Positions 1,709 through 8,378 of a DNA stretch of 8,385 nucleotides are shown here, piece after piece (position 1 is the first letter of the stretch; each line of letters opens with the position of its first letter). This DNA comes from an uncultured Desulfuromonadales bacterium (lineage in GTDB: Bacteria > Desulfobacterota > Desulfuromonadia > Desulfuromonadales > Geopsychrobacteraceae). The stretch lies in assembly GCA_947259685.1 (NCBI GenBank), contig CAMYNC010000149.1, positions 1 through 8,385 on the forward strand. The letters are read 5' to 3'. The notes under the pieces are model-generated. The model ran no database searches. It was given only the letters and a program-made list of their open reading frames with translations, and was not told the DNA's origin. The position numbers and the translations under genes were made by a program.

Positions 1709-4444
1709 CTAACCGATAAGGCCTAAGTCCATAGCCCTTTCAACAGCCTGGCGGCGTTTTTCGACGCTGAGCTTCTGATAGATGTTTCTCAGGTGTGACT
1801 TTACGGTCACCGGGGAGATGTGCAGCTTGTCTGCGATCTCCTTGTTTTGCATCCGCTGGGACAAAAGCTCAAGAATGTCCAGCTCACGATGCGTTAGCGG
1901 CTCAGGCAAGCACTGAGCGCTGGTGGGTGCCTGGTCCCGTTTGGTTCTGAACTCTGGAGACTCCTGTAAATCGACCTGGCCATCGCCTTCGAAAGCGCTC
2001 AAGATCTGCTCAATCTGATCTGGATTGGCATCGTTGCGGTCCAACCGCTTTAACGCATCTGCCATGAGTGGGCCGCATTCGATAAAAGGACGGACCCATC
2101 TGCCAGGCTCGGCTAAGTTCACAGCTTCTGTCAAACACTTCAGGGCGTCATCTTCGCGACCCAGGTTCAAGAGCGCCAAAGACTTCAGGGTAGAGACCTC
2201 AATCTGCTGGCAAGTGAACCGGCACTCCTCATTTATTTGATTGATGGTTCGGAGCAGCTCAATAGCGTCTTCCAGATTCTTTATTTCCCCTGTAGCGATC
2301 AAAACCCTCGCTTGAGTGATCGAAGGGACTTCCAGCCACATGAATAACGCAGAAGCAACCGGTACTTCTTTAGCTGATTGTGCCCAAGCCGCCGCCGTTG
2401 TTAAATCGCCGCGCAACAAAGCGAGTCGGGCCTGGAAGGAGTGGGCCATGGAAAAAAATTCGGGCTCATTCAGTTCCACGGCGAACTCCTGCATCCGGCG
2501 GCAGGTCTCTACCGCCTCGTCGTCGCACTGCATCAGTTGCTGGGTCAGAGACAACCCCGCCAGAGCATCAACCGCCGCCATGGGTTCCAACATGTAACGA
2601 AGCTCGACTGTTTGCGCAAACTGAATCGCTGCGCCCTCCAGGTCCCCGGTGTGCAGTTGGGTGCAGCCGATAAAGTAGTAACTCCAGGCTTCGGCAAGCC
2701 GCATATTGTGCTTCTTTGCCACCTGCTGCAGACGTTGCGCTTCGTGGCGTGCCAGCGACAGATCGCCGCCAATCATGTAGATGAAGGCTAACCCGGCAAT
2801 TAAACGTGAGCGCAAATAGTTCTCAGCCGGGTCGACTTCACTGATCCTGGTTTTCAAAGCCTCAATGGCCTGAGCCTGCTCGCCGAGCATACAACGTACC
2901 AGACCGAGCATGAGTTCGGCTTCGCCCAGAAACGGGGTCTGCTTACCCATCAGCAGCGACACGGCCTCTTCAAGAGTTTTTCGACTGAGTTCGGTCTGAC
3001 CTTCGAAGTAAGCGACGTAGCCGCGCAGGAAGGAGAATTCTCCCACCACCAGCGGTTCTGCAGGTTGACCATGGAGTAGCACTTCGACCTGCTCAAGCAG
3101 CGTCAAGGCCCGGGCCAACTGATGCTGCAGGTTACAAATCCATATTTCAGTCAGCAGCAGCTTCGGTCGCACCTGCCGGATCTCGTTGGGGAGCATGTTA
3201 AACCACTGGACAACGACATTCCATTGCTCTGAATCCAACTCGCGGTACCGATGCTCTTCGACGATATCTGCCGCACGTTCATCATCTCCCGCCAGCAGCG
3301 CATGTTTAATCGATTCTGTGATCAACCCGTTCGACTCAAACCAGACACTGGCCTGGAGGTGAAGCTGCTCAATCTTCTCGGCACTCATGCTCTGTTTCAA
3401 CTTGCGCTGTAGCAGGTCCTGAAACAGGTGGTGATAACGGAACCATTGATTTTCTGTATCGAGAGGAATAATGAATAGGTTATTTTTAAGCAGCCAGCTG
3501 ACAAATATTCCTCCATCCACATCATCCTGTCCCGGCGTTGTATCATTCTCACGCAGCGCATCGAACAGCGAAGAGCAGAATCGATTCAGGATCGAGGATT
3601 TCAGAAGGCAGAGCCGGATAGCGGGAGATTGGTTTTCCAAAAGCTCGCTGACCAGGTAATCCATCACATAACGCGTGGTCCCGCGCAGGTCCAAAAGTTT
3701 TTGGCCCAGATCAGCCTGCCCGTGCAAGGCAAGAACCGCCAGGCGCAAACCGGTCACCCATCCCTCAGCCTTGTCTGCCAAAGCTGAGGCGATGGTGTCA
3801 TCACATTCTTGAGCCATCGACAGGCTCAGTAGCTCTTTCGTTTCAGCAACGGAAAAGCGTAGGTCGCTCATCCGAATCTCGGTCAACAGACCTTTACCGC
3901 GAAGTGCTGAAATTGCGATGCCTGGGTCCCGCCGACCAATCAAAACAAGCTGCATCGATAAGGGTGGATAGCGTAGCAGAGTATCAAGAAGCTCAAGAAC
4001 GTCTAGGCTCTGAACAAGATGAATATCATCGAGAACGATAATAAACTCCAGTTCAATCAGTTCCAGTTCGTTCGTCAGGGTACTTGCCAACAGTTTGGTA
4101 GGCGGTAAAACCGACCCATCGAGCAGGACGATGGTCTCCCTGCATGCATCGGGAAAAACTTTCTGAATGGCCGCAATAAAATAGAGAAGAAACTGGTTCA
4201 GATCATTATCATTCTCATCAAGGGACAACCAGGTGGCGGGTTTCTCACTCGTCTCCAGCCAGCAACTGGCCAGAGTGCTTTTCCCGTACCCGGCCGGAGC
4301 CGAAACCAATATCAAACCCTGAGAGATGTTCTTGTCCAGACGTTCCAACAATTCGGGCCGGTGCACATGGTCTAAGGGAACCGGGGGGCGATGCAATTTG
4401 GATCGAAGGATGGGGAGTTGCGAAGCTGCCATTTGAATATACAT
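1709..4444 (-). CDS. MalT-like LuxR-family ATP-binding transcriptional regulator (LAL type)
   Basis: This 911-residue protein has the full architecture of large ATP-binding LuxR (MalT-type) activators. The N-terminal nucleotide-binding domain shows Walker A APAGYGKST (49-57), Walker B FIIVLDDIH (134-142), a sensor segment LVLIGRRDP (166-174) and EGWVTGLRLA (about 227-236). The arm motif WFRYHHLFQDLL (334-345) follows. A long helical-repeat sensor region runs from about 360 to 800. A C-terminal LuxR helix-turn-helix (849-911) contains LTHRELDILELLSQ and NKEIADKLHISPVTVKSHL. In this family, ATP and an inducer bind the N-terminal and sensor parts and drive oligomerisation before DNA binding. The inducer here cannot be read from sequence. 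The start is uncertain: ATGs at 4444 and 4432 are both possible and neither has a strong ribosome binding site. The frame is intact. It may control the barrel genes downstream, but that is inferred from position only. Confidence 0.93.
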   Translation of the reverse strand: MYIQMAASQLPILRSKLHRPPVPLDHVHRPELLERLDKNISQGLILVSAPAGYGKSTLASCWLETSEKPATWLSLDENDNDLNQFLLYFIAAIQKVFPDACRETIVLLDGSVLPPTKLLASTLTNELELIELEFIIVLDDIHLVQSLDVLELLDTLLRYPPLSMQLVLIGRRDPGIAISALRGKGLLTEIRMSDLRFSVAETKELLSLSMAQECDDTIASALADKAEGWVTGLRLAVLALHGQADLGQKLLDLRGTTRYVMDYLVSELLENQSPAIRLCLLKSSILNRFCSSLFDALRENDTTPGQDDVDGGIFVSWLLKNNLFIIPLDTENQWFRYHHLFQDLLQRKLKQSMSAEKIEQLHLQASVWFESNGLITESIKHALLAGDDERAADIVEEHRYRELDSEQWNVVVQWFNMLPNEIRQVRPKLLLTEIWICNLQHQLARALTLLEQVEVLLHGQPAEPLVVGEFSFLRGYVAYFEGQTELSRKTLEEAVSLLMGKQTPFLGEAELMLGLVRCMLGEQAQAIEALKTRISEVDPAENYLRSRLIAGLAFIYMIGGDLSLARHEAQRLQQVAKKHNMRLAEAWSYYFIGCTQLHTGDLEGAAIQFAQTVELRYMLEPMAAVDALAGLSLTQQLMQCDDEAVETCRRMQEFAVELNEPEFFSMAHSFQARLALLRGDLTTAAAWAQSAKEVPVASALFMWLEVPSITQARVLIATGEIKNLEDAIELLRTINQINEECRFTCQQIEVSTLKSLALLNLGREDDALKCLTEAVNLAEPGRWVRPFIECGPLMADALKRLDRNDANPDQIEQILSAFEGDGQVDLQESPEFRTKRDQAPTSAQCLPEPLTHRELDILELLSQRMQNKEIADKLHISPVTVKSHLRNIYQKLSVEKRRQAVERAMDLGLIG

Positions 4445-5036
4445 TCCAAAGCGCTAAAGAAATGACATAAGGCTTCCGCCACATACGGATAGCTTGCACT
4501 CAATGTTCAACAGCCATTTTCAGTATCAGAAGTTTAGCAATTCAAATGGCTTCAGTACATCGATAATATTAAAACGGTCAATATGAGGGGCTCGGAAGTT
4601 GTTCCCGAAGGTTCGAAAGGAGCAAAGTCTACTGATCTGAGCAATCCTAGAAAACCTAACTGGTTGGTTAGTGATCGAGGATGATTCCAGCCCGAAAATA
4701 TCGATCAGTCAAAAGTATTCTGAATTGTTTTGACCCCCTGTGTCACCCATTTAAAGTCAGGATATCGGTCAGATCGAGCATGTTCCGAATATCGCGCAAT
4801 CCAAGACACCCAGATCGCGATTATCAAAATTTAGCGTTTTTGCCGCATCAATCGATTTTGCCTTATCAAAATTGTTTTCCTGACTTTTGACAGGCCGATC
4901 CCCTCATGATTTTCCCTTCAAAAGTCCTTCCATAACTGCCGATTTCACCCAATGGCTGTCCAATAGGACAATTGTCAAATTTGATTTTCCGATTTTTGGA
5001 AGAGAAAATGCCCCAGATCTGGCCGACTTGGCGCAT
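4445..5036. other. AT-rich intergenic stretch, no gene recognised
   Basis: This DNA lies between the regulator start and the Fic transposon. It must contain the regulator's promoter, but I found no convincing -35/-10 pair. Short open frames (4681-4890 and the one starting at 4887) lack ribosome binding sites and family resemblance. Small repeats are present: an 8-bp inverted repeat (4512-4551) and an 11-bp direct repeat TTATCAAAATT at 4821-4831 and 4863-4873, 42 bp apart. GATCG-containing words recur between 4670 and 4820. It may be decayed coding DNA or a long control region. Confidence 0.5.
4512..4551. repeat. 8-bp inverted repeat in the LuxR upstream region
   Basis: AGCCATTT (4512-4519) and AAATGGCT (4544-4551) are perfect inverted copies separated by 24 bases. 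They lie 68-107 bases upstream of the regulator start. They could be half-sites of an operator or a hairpin in the leader. With arms this short, chance is possible. Confidence 0.3.
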
Positions 5037-5044
5037 CAAAAAAC
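5037..5044. repeat. Left target-site duplication of the Fic transposon
   Basis: CAAAAAAC directly abuts the left terminal inverted repeat. The identical 8 bases directly abut the right one (6358-6365). An 8-bp AT-rich duplication at both outer edges is what a transposase leaves on insertion. Confidence 0.8.
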
Positions 5045-5070
5045 GGGTATTTGGAATAGGCTGTTGAAAA
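5045..5070 (+). repeat. Left 26-bp terminal inverted repeat of the Fic transposon
   Basis: It runs from GGGTATTTGGAAT at the outer tip to GGCTGTTGAAAA at the inner end. It is the reverse complement of 6332-6357 with one mismatch (A at 5058 against C in the other arm). The inner end supplies the TTGAAA -35 box of the likely fic promoter. Confidence 0.9.
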
Positions 5071-5092
5071 ATAATCACCCAGCCTTTATTTT
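5064..5092 (+). promoter_or_regulatory. Likely sigma-70 promoter of fic
   Basis: TTGAAA (5064-5069, 5 of 6 to TTGACA) is followed by a 17-base spacer and TATTTT (5087-5092, 4 of 6 to TATAAT). Transcription would start near 5099, about 53 bases before the fic ATG. The -35 box lies inside the left terminal repeat, so the promoter would move with the element. Confidence 0.5.
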
Positions 5093-5135
5093 AGGTAAAA
5101 GCGAAAAGCTAAAATAATGTCGATCTTTATTTTAG
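5084..5135. promoter_or_regulatory. Triple 11-bp repeat, candidate operator of fic
   Basis: CTTTATTTTAG occurs at 5084-5094 and again, identically, at 5125-5135. An inverted copy with one mismatch, CTAAAATAATG, lies between them at 5109-5119. The first copy overlaps the proposed -10 box and the other two lie between the expected start point and the gene. This arrangement fits a repressor site. The Fic protein's own C-terminal winged helix is the obvious candidate binder, but that is inference. Confidence 0.45.
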
Positions 5136-5151
5136 ATTCGAGGGAAGCAGG

Positions 5152-6321
5152 ATGAAAAGAGAACTCCAAGGTAGATACGTGGCTATAGCAACGGTGAGTG
5201 AGAAGGCTCAGGCCTTCGTGCCTGCTCCGCTGCCTCCGCGGCCGCCCATCGAATGGACACCGGAACTGCGCAGTAAGTTCGATCGGGCGCTGCTGGCTCT
5301 CGGCCGGTTGGACAGTGTTTCAACCCTTCTACCGGATACCTCGCTGTTTCTCTACATGTACGTCCGCAAGGAGGCAGTGCTCTCCTCAATGATCGAGGGA
5401 ACCCAGTCGTCGTTGTCGGACCTACTGATGTTCGAGCTGGATCAGGAACCTGGCGTACCACTTGATGACGTGCGAGAGGTTAGCAACTATGTCGCTGCTC
5501 TCAACCATGGCCTGCATCTGCTTGAAGACGGTTTACCTCTTTCGTTACGCCTATTCCGGGAGGTTCACGGCGTGCTACTGACCAAGGGGCGTGGTAGCAA
5601 CCAGACCCCAGGTGAGTTCCGGCGCAGTCAGAACTGGATCGGCGGTACCCGGCCAGGTAACGCGGCTTTCGTTCCGCCTCCTGCCGAAGAGGTGCTGGAG
5701 TGCATGAGCAAACTCGAACTCTTCCTGCACGACCAGCCCGAGTCAACTCCCGTGCTGCTCAAGGCAGCATTAGCCCATGTGCAGTTCGAGACAATTCACC
5801 CGTTTTTGGACGGAAATGGCCGCTTGGGGCGGCTCTTGATCACGCTACTGCTTTGCGAGAAAAAGGTGCTGCAGGAACCGATGCTCTATCTGAGCCTCTA
5901 CTTCAAGACGCATCGCCAGTATTACTATGAACTGCTCAACAACGTGCGCCTAACAGGCGACTGGGAAGCATGGCTCGATTTCTTCGCCGAAGCGGTAACC
6001 GTCACTGCCACCCAGGCCGTGGAAACCGCGCAGCAGCTTCTCGATCTGTCAAGCCAGGATCGTGAAACGATTAGCGGTCTTGGTCGTGCAGCGGCGTCTG
6101 TCCTTCAGATCCACCGAGCGTTGATGGAGCACCCCATAGCCACTTCAGGTTGGCTGGTGAAGAAGACCGGCATTACCCCCGCAACCGTAAATAAGGCGCT
6201 TGGGCATCTGGAGCGGCTTGGTATCGTGAAGGAGATCACGGCACAAAAGCGAAACCGGCTATTCAGCTATGCGGGTTACATCGAAATAATGGGTCGCGGA
6301 ACGGAGTTGCCGGGAGAATAG
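5152..6321 (+). CDS. Class II Fic-family protein AMP-transferase with C-terminal winged helix
   Basis: This 389-residue Fic protein would transfer AMP (or another nucleotide part) from ATP to a Ser, Thr or Tyr hydroxyl of a target protein. The catalytic motif HPFLDGNGRLGR (216-227) is complete, with H216, the D220-G-N-G-R224 anion-binding loop and R227. The substrate-docking flap is GGTRPGNAAFVPPP (164-177). The N-terminal Fic_N region contains S78-x-x-x-E82-G83, the inhibitory helix motif of class II Fic enzymes, so the protein is self-inhibited and needs no separate antitoxin; none is encoded beside it. Residues about 314-375 form a winged helix (TSGWLVKKTGITPATVNKALGHLERLGIV). The ATG at 5152 has an AGGGAAGCAGG ribosome binding site directly upstream, and the N-terminus looks complete (AFVPAPLPPRPP). 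Its more GC-rich coding DNA contrasts with the AT-rich flanks. The target protein is unknown. Confidence 0.93.
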   Translation: MKRELQGRYVAIATVSEKAQAFVPAPLPPRPPIEWTPELRSKFDRALLALGRLDSVSTLLPDTSLFLYMYVRKEAVLSSMIEGTQSSLSDLLMFELDQEPGVPLDDVREVSNYVAALNHGLHLLEDGLPLSLRLFREVHGVLLTKGRGSNQTPGEFRRSQNWIGGTRPGNAAFVPPPAEEVLECMSKLELFLHDQPESTPVLLKAALAHVQFETIHPFLDGNGRLGRLLITLLLCEKKVLQEPMLYLSLYFKTHRQYYYELLNNVRLTGDWEAWLDFFAEAVTVTATQAVETAQQLLDLSSQDRETISGLGRAAASVLQIHRALMEHPIATSGWLVKKTGITPATVNKALGHLERLGIVKEITAQKRNRLFSYAGYIEIMGRGTELPGE

Positions 6322-6331
6322 GTTCGACCAG

Positions 6332-6357
6332 TTTTCAACAGCCGATTCCAAATACCC
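6332..6357 (-). repeat. Right 26-bp terminal inverted repeat of the Fic transposon
   Basis: It is the inverted partner of 5045-5070, matching at 25 of 26 positions. It begins 10 bases after the fic stop codon, so the element is packed tightly around the gene. Confidence 0.9.
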
Positions 6358-6365
6358 CAAAAAAC
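6358..6365. repeat. Right target-site duplication of the Fic transposon
   Basis: CAAAAAAC is identical to 5037-5044 and sits directly outside the right terminal repeat. Confidence 0.8.
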
Positions 6366-6374
6366 TAACTGTAG

Positions 6375-6396
6375 GGCAGTCACAAACTGCCATTTA
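6375..6396 (+). terminator. Weak hairpin, possible terminator for fic transcripts
   Basis: GGCAGT (6375-6380), a CACAA loop and ACTGCC (6386-6391) form a perfect 6-bp stem. It is followed by ATTTATTA, only a partial T tract. It lies 53 bases after the fic stop but outside the transposon, so it belongs to the target DNA. Confidence 0.35.
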
Positions 6397-6432
6397 TTAC
6401 TAGTTTTGAAAAAAAAACAGAAACTGTCATAG

Positions 6433-6676
6433 GTTGTTATCAAAAGCGAAAGCCTGAATTTTGCCATCCCAAGAGATAGGCCCCAGTTCAAAGGAACCGA
6501 AGCAATACTTAACCAGACTGTGCCCGTTTATACAGTGGATTTTACAGGCTCCAAAGGGCTTGATCCCAATTTGACAAACCCAAAAATCAATGCCATAACG
6601 GTATAACTTCTCAAACTACGAGGAAACATACCAATGGAGCATCGATGCTGAAAATATAACGTCTGCACCCCTATAA
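6433..6676 (+). pseudogene. 3' remnant of an unrecognised gene, broken by a frameshift
   Basis: From 6433 a frame with no start codon reads as ordinary protein (for example GTEAILNQTVPVYTVDF and GLDPNLTNPKINAITV) and stops at TAA 6604-6606. The next frame, open only from 6599, continues just as naturally with YNFSNYEETYQWSIDAEN and ITSAPL to TAA at 6674-6676. The two frames overlap only at 6599-6603, so a single small event there (one extra base, or two missing) splits one protein. Joined, they give about 80 residues of a C-terminus. A terminator-like hairpin overlaps the second stop, which supports a true gene end. An in-frame TAG at 6430 and the lack of a start show that the 5' part is lost. 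I do not recognise the family; the segment looks strand-rich and possibly extracellular. A sequencing error could explain the frameshift but not the missing start. Confidence 0.5.
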
Positions 6677-6723: not shown

Positions 6724-6741
6724 TGTCAGGATAGATGTCGC
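6724..6741 (+). repeat. Left terminal inverted repeat of the IS3-family element
   Basis: TGTCAGGATAGATGTCGC matches the reverse complement of 8361-8378 in TGTCA and GATGTCGC, and in 15 of 18 positions overall. The two arms have the same spacing. The TG tip is normal for IS3 elements. Confidence 0.8.
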
Positions 6742-6790
6742 CTCTCCTTGAGAGATTTTGTGTTAGCCTCGTGGGCGAAAGAGAGAGACG

Positions 6791-7294
6791 ATGCCAACCA
6801 GATATTCCGAAGAGTTTAAAGCGAGCATCATCGCCAAGCTACTGCCCCCTAATAACGCCCGGGTTCTAGAGGTGGCCAAGGAGACCGGAATCCCCAAGGA
6901 CACCTTATACACTTGGCGGACTAAGTATCGCCATGCCCCCCATGGCAGCACAGCGCCGGGCCAGAACCAGAAGAGCGACAGCTTTAGAAGCGAAGAGAAG
7001 TTTGCCGTTGTGCTTGAAACCGCCAGTCTGAACGAGTTGGAACTCGGGGAGTATTGTCGGCGAAACGGGCTTTACCCGGAACAAATCGCCGGCTGGAAAA
7101 AAGCATTTATCCAGGGCTCTAGTCCGGAGGCCAGCAAGGCCGAACGGGTACAGTTGCAGCATCAGGCCCAAACGATCAAGCAGCTCCAGAGCGAACTTCA
7201 TCGCAAAGATAAGGCTTTGGCCGAGGCGGCGGCACTGCTGGTTCTCGGAAAAAAGGCTCAGGCGCTTTTGGGGGACCCCGAGGACGAAAAATAG
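6791..7294 (+). CDS. IS3-family transposase OrfA (DNA-binding subunit)
   Basis: This 167-residue protein has two helix-turn-helix regions. The first, at about 5-44, contains YSEEFKASIIAKLLPP and LEVAKETGIPKDTLYTW. The second, at about 66-104, contains RSEEKFAVVLETASL and LGEYCRRNGLYPEQIAGW. A leucine-rich coiled coil (about 118-150, ending KDKALAEAAALLVLGKK) follows, as expected for OrfA multimerisation and terminal-repeat binding. The ATG at 6791 is preceded by a purine-rich GAGAGAGACG. The stop is TAG at 7292-7294. Made alone, OrfA usually tempers transposition in this family; fused to OrfB by frameshifting it gives the active transposase. Confidence 0.9.
   Translation: MPTRYSEEFKASIIAKLLPPNNARVLEVAKETGIPKDTLYTWRTKYRHAPHGSTAPGQNQKSDSFRSEEKFAVVLETASLNELELGEYCRRNGLYPEQIAGWKKAFIQGSSPEASKAERVQLQHQAQTIKQLQSELHRKDKALAEAAALLVLGKKAQALLGDPEDEK
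7249..7255 (+). promoter_or_regulatory. Programmed -1 frameshift site (A AAA AAG)
   Basis: In the OrfA frame the codons read GGA AAA AAG (residues 153-155). The heptamer A AAA AAG is therefore in exactly the phase needed for tandem -1 slippage. After the slip, translation continues from GGC 7255 in the OrfB frame with no stop. The predicted OrfAB fusion has 521 residues: 155 from OrfA and 366 after the shift. A second, weaker A-run (GAAAAAT) lies just before the OrfA stop. Confidence 0.75.
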
Positions 7295-7317
7295 ACCTCT
7301 CTAAGCGCCAAGAAGTA

Positions 7318-8355
7318 ATGACCCTAATCGATGAAAGCTGCGCTGCCGGAGCTCGCCTAACCCAGGCCTCCGAGGTTCTTGGGCTTTCGTCCCGGACCGT
7401 GCAGCGCTGGCGTCAGGGCGGCACGGTGAAGGCCGATGGACGCAAGGCGGGAGCTCAGGGTCGAGTCCCGACGAACAAGCTCGCAGGCGAGGAGCGGGAC
7501 GCGATTCTGGCCACCGCCAATGCCCCACAATTCGCCCATCTGCCTCCCAGCCAAATCGTACCGCTGCTCGCGGATGAAGGTTGCTATCTGGCCTCCGAAT
7601 CGAGCTTTTATCGCGTCTTGCGCGAAAATAAACAACTGGCCCATCGCGACCGGGCTAAGGCACCTAGGAATAAGCGCCCGGAACCGGTAACAGCTACCGC
7701 GTCGAATCAGCTCTGGAGTTGGGATATCACCTATCTTTCAACGACCGTCAAGGGGATCTACTTTTACCTCTACCTGATCATGGACGTCTATAGTCGCAAG
7801 ATCGTGGGTTGGGAAATCTACGCAGAGGAATCCGCCGAACACGCCGCCAGCATTGCTCGTAAGGCTTACCTGCGCGAAGGGGTGGCCGGTAGATCTCTGG
7901 TACTGCACTCCGATAATGGTTCGCCCATGAAAGGCGCCACAATGCTGGGAACCTTGCAGAAACTTGGCATAACGCCCTCTTTCAGCCGCCCCTCGGTCAG
8001 TAATGACAATCCTTACTCGGAGGCCTTGTTCAAGACTCTGAAGTACCGCCCATGCTTTCCGGAGAAGCCTTTCGACTCTTTGGAGGAGGCACGTCAGTGG
8101 GTTGCCGGGTTCCAGCAGTGGTACAACGAAGAGCACCGGCACAGTGCTTTGAAGTTCGTAACGCCAGGGCAACGCCACCGTGGTGAGGATGCCGCCCTGC
8201 TCAACCAACGAGCGGGAGTCTACGCTGTTGCGAAGAGTAGAAAGCCCGAGAGGTGGTCAGGCAATACCAGAAACTGGACCCGGCCAGAGGAGATCACCCT
8301 CAACCCGAAAAAATCGCCTCAAAGTCAGGCGATAAAGACAGACGAAGCCGCTTAG
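7318..8355 (+). CDS. IS3-family transposase OrfB (DDE integrase core)
   Basis: From its first ATG this is 345 residues. The frame is open well upstream, as expected for a product made mainly as an OrfAB fusion. Residues about 1-35 hold a helix-turn-helix (LTQASEVLGLSSRTVQRWRQ). The rve-type catalytic core contains D136 (WSWDITYL), D199 (LHSDNGSPM) and E235 (SNDNPYSEALFKTLKY). The spacing of 35 residues between the last two is the DD(35)E signature of the family. The WYNEEHRHSALKFVTPGQRH tail is also typical. The C-terminal extension is basic and Pro/Arg-rich. Its own ATG has only a weak ribosome binding site. The stop lies 5 bases before the right inverted repeat. Confidence 0.93.
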   Translation: MTLIDESCAAGARLTQASEVLGLSSRTVQRWRQGGTVKADGRKAGAQGRVPTNKLAGEERDAILATANAPQFAHLPPSQIVPLLADEGCYLASESSFYRVLRENKQLAHRDRAKAPRNKRPEPVTATASNQLWSWDITYLSTTVKGIYFYLYLIMDVYSRKIVGWEIYAEESAEHAASIARKAYLREGVAGRSLVLHSDNGSPMKGATMLGTLQKLGITPSFSRPSVSNDNPYSEALFKTLKYRPCFPEKPFDSLEEARQWVAGFQQWYNEEHRHSALKFVTPGQRHRGEDAALLNQRAGVYAVAKSRKPERWSGNTRNWTRPEEITLNPKKSPQSQAIKTDEAA

Positions 8356-8360
8356 AAAAT

Positions 8361-8378
8361 GCGACATCTTTATTGACA
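8361..8378 (-). repeat. Right terminal inverted repeat of the IS3-family element
   Basis: GCGACATCTTTATTGACA is the inverted partner of 6724-6741. Its outer six bases (8373-8378) read TTGACA on the plus strand, a perfect -35 hexamer pointing out of the element. Confidence 0.8.

Follow-up and report, generated by a model that had tools for sequence, protein, structure and literature searches.

How does a single fic gene come to lie between matching inverted ends and an exact target-site duplication, with no transposase gene inside? The locus is found in contig CAMYNC010000149.1 (assembly GCA_947259685.1) of an uncultured Desulfuromonadales bacterium of the Geopsychrobacteraceae, and the whole stretch analysed, 8,385 nt, is referred to here as the window. 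We identified a unit of 1313 bp (5045-6357) at which the left terminal inverted repeat, GGGTATTTGGAATAGGCTGTTGAAAA (5045..5070, + strand), an ISL3-type end, matches the right one, which reads GGGTATTTGGAATCGGCTGTTGAAAA on the - strand (6332..6357), at 25 of 26 positions (the two 26-nt arms are 96% complementary). Directly outside the arms, the letters at 5037..5044 read CAAAAAAC and are identical to those at 6358..6365, an 8-bp duplication (no strand) which marks one insertion of a bounded unit. The sole gene detected inside by open reading frame (ORF) calling and domain search was fic (5152-6321, + strand, 389 aa, with Fic_N and Fic domains), whose stop lies 10 bp away from the right arm. The arms, the repeat and the intact fic had been proposed in an initial annotation of this DNA, and all three were confirmed when measured again. 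We consider it probable that the unit is a mobile insertion cassette (MIC) of the ISL3 family, which carries a single self-contained fic and is moved in trans.

A 23-letter pattern of the arms, with up to 3 mismatches, matched the window at the two arms only, and at 0 of 200 dinucleotide shuffles. In addition, 120 fic loci (the window plus 119 relatives out of the 151 fetched, the 32 viral loci L121-L152, 38-52% identical, being left out) were scanned blindly, with 2 kb on either side, for inverted arms that enclose fic, agree at 16/20 or better and are bordered by an exact 8-bp repeat. Apart from the window (19/20), the scan gave a single pair, 17/20, in L006, which we read as a terminator-like repeat; the control with mispaired flanks gave 0/355. 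An earlier scan of the window and 84 loci, at which no repeat was demanded, returned inverted pairs of 18-19/22 in five others (L006, L011, L022, L055 and L067), with unrelated sequences and 8-bp flanks that did not match. Arms of the window type were found in none of the fic relatives covered by the two scans. The GC fraction was 0.40-0.44 left of the unit, 0.53-0.61 inside fic and 0.40-0.49 right of the unit.

The family of the ends was approached with a 30-nt right-end query, whose best match in a BLAST search against plasmids (E 0.01) fell at the end of a gene annotated as an ISL3 transposase on plasmid pGSUB1 of Geoalkalibacter subterraneus (NZ_CP010312). The inverted partner of this end was located by a pattern search of the same record, and the two delimit a complete transposon of 8388 bp (NZ_CP010312 120993-129380; L156:1494-9881) with an exact 8-bp repeat, AAAATAAA, encoding HsdM, HsdS, one further protein, HsdR and a DDE_Tnp_ISL3 transposase. 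The right arm of the window matched the better end of this transposon at 24/26 and the other end at 21/26, while the left arm matched the better end at 23/26. A second autonomous relative, with a 61% identical transposase, was detected in genome G436; its ends (GGATACCCGGAATCTACTGTTGATAA and GGGTATTCGGAATAAAGTGTTGAAAA), 19/26 alike, enclose the transposase together with a Schlafen AlbA_2/HATPase protein, and its flanks (TTAAAAAC and CAAAAACC) form no exact duplication. For the ISL3 element ISPst2, the ends were published as GGGTATCCGGAATTTCTGGTTGAT and GGGTATACGGATTTAATGGTTGAT and the target duplications as TTTTTAAA and CAAAAAAG (PMC6305408 Table 3); these ends match the window arms at 16/24 (left inverted repeat, IRL) and 15/24.

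The ends were assigned to the ISL3 family because of the 24/26 match to the Geoalkalibacter transposon, the G436 relative, and the published ends and duplications of ISPst2, and, judged by their letters, ISL3-family ends is what they are. The A/T-rich 8-bp duplication expected of the family is present, exact in the window (CAAAAAAC) as it is in the reference element (AAAATAAA). No DDE_Tnp_ISL3 gene lies inside the unit, and thus the unit is not itself an insertion sequence (IS) of the ISL3 family, only a bearer of its ends. A tblastn search with three ISL3 transposases, at which two positive controls matched, gave no match in the window or in the 151 fic loci, which agrees with the earlier description of a transposon-like unit with fic as its sole gene and no transposase.

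IS-type ends and a passenger gene, without a transposase, make a MIC, and the unit has this composition. MIC231 reportedly carries adp, a cargo other than that of the fic unit. MICs likewise combine IS-type ends and passenger DNA with the lack of a transposase, and may be activated by a cognate transposase (PMC3129680, PMC4133298); one with qnrS2 differs from the fic unit in cargo (PMC5444012). ISL3 elements of the ISPst2/ISPpu12 kind have ends of the form GGGTAT..GGAAT or similar, 8-bp A/T-rich duplications and passengers, a putative permease and an ArsR-type regulator in ISPst2 and a lipoprotein signal peptidase and a heavy-metal antiporter in ISPpu12a, but unlike the fic unit they encode their own transposase (PMC6305408, PMC4133298). 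The Geoalkalibacter transposon resembles the fic unit in its related ends, its exact 8-bp A/T-rich duplication and its anti-invader cargo, whereas it differs in being autonomous, with its own ISL3 transposase, a type I restriction-modification cargo and a length of 8388 bp. As a side observation, an iscB gene is found outside this transposon, at a distance of about 1 kb.

A parallel in composition came from a search of Desulfuromonadia, which gave one clean further transposase-less unit, in genome G469 (L197:5687-6492, 806 bp, arms 25/26 alike, exact 8-bp repeat TAAAAATC). Its sole cargo is a PhdYefM antitoxin with a ParE toxin, without a transposase, and no DDE_Tnp_ISL3 match was found in G469, a genome whose completeness is not established. 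This Phd-ParE cassette is like the fic unit in its ISL3-type arms (19-21/26 to the window arms), its exact duplication and its toxin-only cargo, and differs in carrying a toxin-antitoxin pair instead of fic and in the divergent inner part of its arms. Relatives of this gene pair were rejected as cassettes, as G953 is homologous over the toxin-antitoxin genes but has no such arms. Tn3-family transposons also carry toxin-antitoxin pairs, but within the transposition module (PMC7157771). In the literature searched, of which the coverage was partial, we recognised no ISL3 MIC and no ISL3 or transposase-less cassette with fic or toxin-antitoxin cargo. Thus, transposase-less cassettes with IS ends and ISL3 elements with passengers are already known, while ISL3 ends around a lone fic appear to be new.

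The relatives of fic give an independent view of the boundaries. The genome loci fetched were the best 80 of 582 confirmed, and when the whole window was compared by blastn with the 151 fic loci, 148 of them matched, with matches that began at 5080 or later and ended at 6336 or earlier; outside the fic region, the window had no match in any of the 151. Since the matches are confined to 5080-6336, the fic homology stops at the arms, and in the best matches (start 5080-5084) family-homologous DNA begins after a gap of only 9-13 bp from the left arm. The observation named beforehand as speaking against a transposon, arm-less fic loci that share the DNA beyond 5037 and 6365, was looked for: homologous loci without arms exist, yet none shares DNA on the outer side of either arm. 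A search for the empty site, in which 590 bp of the left flank served as query against 291 genomes, returned no more than two short matches (30-33 bp).

Fic relatives at 92-94% protein identity, among the best 120 of 8000 scored, came from very different groups, including Desulfococcus, Halothiobacillus, Prosthecochloris, Bacteroidota, Myxococcota and others, some of which are metagenome bins. As such relatives are widely distributed and none of those scanned has the arms, the fic family appears to spread by other means, and the window copy is best read as one that was packaged into ISL3 ends. The initial annotation had seen here a mobile unit that spreads fic. The transposon-like unit stands, but its role in spreading is conjectural, with relatives already widespread, no such arms in those scanned and a second copy of the unit not found.

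The window Fic consists of Fic_N, the Fic domain and a C-terminal winged helix, and carries the Fic motif HPFLDGNGR and the N-terminal inhibitory motif SSMIEG, both widely conserved in the aligned relatives. Class II Fic proteins have an N-terminal (S/T)xxxE(G/N) inhibitory motif together with the Fic motif HPFx(D/E)GNGR. By this motif rule, the predicted product is a SoFic-type class II protein adenylyltransferase, and the earlier reading of the sole gene as a self-inhibited class II Fic was borne out by its motifs. The PADLOC SoFic model matched at E 2.7e-119 (residues 18-380), while the solved SoFic structures are only distantly related to the window Fic (phmmer 6.4e-36, residues 34-382). 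SoFic and CccR, like the window Fic, combine Fic with a C-terminal helix-turn-helix (HTH). In E. coli, a 47-aa antitoxin gene lies downstream of Sofic (PMC12249575), whereas the window fic has no such ORF: no + strand ORF of at least 25 aa was found in the interval from the fic stop to the right repeat.

At the left junction, the arm and the fic family's own DNA together form a predicted hybrid promoter (5064..5092, + strand), with the -35-like box TTGAAA (5064-5069) inside the left arm, a spacer of exactly 17 bp and the -10 box TATTTT (5087-5092). The TATTTT is the one native to the fic family, and the TTGAAA is supplied by the arm. Among the nearest fic relatives with an identity of 89% or more and 140 bp of DNA upstream, 11 in number, TTGATT precedes TATTTT by 17 bp in 10, and the remaining one has TTGCTA. 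A plain promoter scan of 4950-6450 gave 2 sites, the hybrid promoter among them, against a shuffle mean of 0.7, and by itself the scan is therefore weak. The arrangement is read directly from the sequence, and the promoter is presumably active. The transposon end thus stands in place of the gene's own -35, at exact spacing, and a promoter is formed at the junction.

A putative operator of three TTATTTTAG half-sites (5086..5135; +, -, +; start-to-start spacing 23 and 18) overlaps the -10 box with its first half-site and runs from there toward fic. Its score was 27/27 (three perfect half-sites), whereas 60 mononucleotide shuffles of this DNA reached 21 at most. Operator-like triples scoring at least 21 were present in 68 of the 80 tabulated fic loci, with a length of 41 in 58, 40 in 7 and 39 in 3; some of the 68 may be chance, because the threshold of 21 falls within the maxima of single-locus shuffles (18-23). 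Half-sites of the ATTTTA type pair with an ATVN-type recognition helix in 47/52 loci, and other half-sites with a different recognition helix in 13/16, both counts including shared ancestry. Three half-sites at this place would fit autorepression of fic. A precedent is CccR, a Fic-HTH protein that shuts down its own promoter by way of an inverted-repeat operator close to the -35 and -10 (PMC9755527). As a separate observation across L002-L085, the operators upstream of fic keep a near-constant length, and the half-site tends to covary with the recognition helix of the winged helix.

Taken together, these features would be explained as follows. The 26-bp ends would have been recognised by an ISL3 transposase encoded by another element of the host, and the unit would have been inserted into an A-tract, with the 8-bp duplication as its trace. 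The fic gene would be transcribed from the fused promoter, with its -35 from the left end, and the winged helix of Fic probably binds the three half-sites over the -10 and so represses its own gene. By analogy with SoFic-type proteins, the N-terminal inhibitory helix would hold the adenylyltransferase inactive until it is triggered, possibly by phage infection, and Fic would then act as a toxin-like defence. We infer the movement, the expression, the autorepression and the defence from the sequence. If correct, this is a specific way in which a toxin-like defence factor encoded by one gene may be packaged to move without a transposase.

Several points weigh against a MIC moved in trans. One end alone proves nothing, because partnerless end-like sequences are common in Desulfuromonadia. 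A second fic unit was not found, and the 23-letter arm pattern had 0 matches in genome_contigs and viral_contigs. The Geoalkalibacter match (E 0.01) was one of 8 records that matched a query of 30 nt, and the other records were read as chance. No ISL3 transposase (E 1e-90) was found in 389 genomes of the class of G005, in a search without a working positive control; 9/194 genomes of the class of G003 have one (E 1e-60). The Fic scored 147.9 bits with the NCBIfam SoFic equivalog NF046030, below its cut-off of 550, and is thus a relative of SoFic, not an equivalog; it possibly has phage-defence activity.

The main rival is a decayed remnant, in which a full ISL3 transposon with both fic and a transposase was inserted here and the transposase was deleted afterwards, so that the unit was never mobile with fic only. 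Autonomous relatives that combine cargo and transposase do exist (Geoalkalibacter and G436), and the fic unit is known from a single copy, both of which suit a remnant. The junctions, however, keep no trace of transposase DNA in the 9-13 bp at the left arm or the 10 bp at the right, and the Phd-ParE cassette is a separate transposase-less unit with an exact duplication, in a genome without an ISL3 transposase match. We therefore hold the remnant to be unlikely, although it deserves more weight than the other alternatives. It is far less probable that two dispersed end-like repeats came to flank fic in inverted orientation by coincidence and that the unit never transposed: partnerless end-like sequences do occur in several Desulfuromonadia genomes, but the exact 8-bp repeat, the 25/26 arms, the end of the fic homology at the arms and the 0/355 mispaired controls all argue against it. 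A passenger element of the IS1595 family, which makes 8-bp duplications and has passenger-only members and was suggested in the initial annotation, would fit by these traits but is hardly credible, because the ends were identified as ISL3 (in a comparison with ISL3 references only) by their match to elements with DDE_Tnp_ISL3 beside the end and to the ISPst2 ends.

Returning to the packaging of fic into ISL3 ends, we looked at other end-like sequences. The end pattern with up to 3 mismatches occurred at 35 places in 26 of 194 Desulfuromonadia genomes, and many of these are chance, since the reversed control pattern occurred at 13 places in 12. For 14 of the ends examined in Desulfuromonadia, a partner was not found. 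In addition to L197, some pairs were more doubtful. A unit in G469 with YefM- and YoeB-like genes only (L240:10856-11468, 613 bp) has weak ends, 15/26 alike, with no exact duplication, and a HipA-like gene paired with an HTH gene in G504 (L210:9179-11509), a tentative case, has ends 15/26 alike and flanks 6/8. The end pair L241:1674-3981 (about 2.3 kb, ends 22/26, no exact duplication) encloses a repeat-rich putative lipoprotein and the pair L243:1386-4017 (about 2.6 kb, ends 20/26, flanks 7/8) a chemoreceptor-like ORF, both by eye; as cassettes these two are unproven, and their predicted cargo does not look toxin-like.

A screen with the 13-bp core GGGTATYYSGAAT gave matches in 86 of 186 Desulfuromonadia genomes, the reversed control being also frequent, and among the matches listed the only inward-facing pairs closer than 10 kb were L197 and L240; such a screen misses pairs with one divergent end, for example the Geoalkalibacter element. 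For the class of G005, at least 123 of 183 genomes had matches, with one close pair among the matches listed. This core pair, in G627 and 9.1 kb apart, was rejected, as it had no duplication and housekeeping-like genes inside by eye. The arm pattern with 3 mismatches gave five single matches (L157-L161) in 395 genomes of the phylum of G005. Three of them (L157, L158 and L160) were read as chance matches within genes, the matched letters of L161 are identical to those of L160, and for L159 a partner end was not found. A looser arm pattern had one match in viral_contigs, L229, with no paired end, which was read as chance; a search of viral_contigs for ISL3 transposases gave none.

The fic unit and the Phd-ParE unit suggest that self-controlled toxin genes can be packaged by means of borrowed transposon ends. 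Perhaps this happens repeatedly, with ISL3-type ends packaging self-regulated toxin or defence modules into transposase-less cassettes that ride on transposases in trans, but we put this forward only tentatively and think it doubtful. Its members would be the SoFic-type Fic and the Phd-ParE of G469, and possibly YefM-YoeB (G469) and HipBA (G504), and the cassettes would persist after loss of the transposase because their cargo is addictive or protective. Among the autonomous ISL3 relatives, the cargo is a type I restriction-modification system in one and a Schlafen-type protein in the other. Against repeated packaging, the YefM-YoeB and HipBA ends are only 15/26 alike with no exact duplication, and L241 (22/26) and L243 (20/26) hold genes unlike toxins; the comparison of these ends lowered the probability that we give to it. 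If such a class of cassettes is real, ISL3 ends would be a searchable handle for single-module toxin or defence cassettes, and the trans-mobilisation of defence genes would be directly testable.

Some minor observations concern the lone ends and the surroundings of fic. The lone end-like sequences of Desulfuromonadia for which a partner was not found (L198-L209, L211 and L212) often follow an A/T run, and by eye the inner sequence is seemingly common to L199/L201, L206/L211 and L198/L200. Fic genes 92-93% identical in different phyla (L003, L005, L006, L007 and L026) have about 140-155 bp upstream and 250 bp downstream in common. L005 and L006 also have 1020 bp upstream of fic in common, and in both, parts of the downstream block recur upstream in diverged form, so that direct repeats flank fic. 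L059 (an Acidobacteria bin) and L062 (an Accumulibacter bin) have about 3.4 kb downstream of fic in common. An integron attC origin of the shared flanks was rejected, as no attC layout was seen by eye, and so was a tRNA-linked integration of fic, with a tRNA or tmRNA gene in 7 of 29 loci scanned and no consistent pattern. A tmRNA gene lies within about 0.5 kb of fic in L008, L017 and L030, and a tRNA is close to fic in L009, L017 and L019.

In the window itself, an IS3-family element with imperfect 25-nt inverted ends is located near the right side of the fic unit (6724-8378; ORFs 6791-7294 and 7318-8355). A LuxR/MalT-like regulator lies at 1709-4444, and its named relatives are mostly from Desulfobacterales or other deltaproteobacteria.

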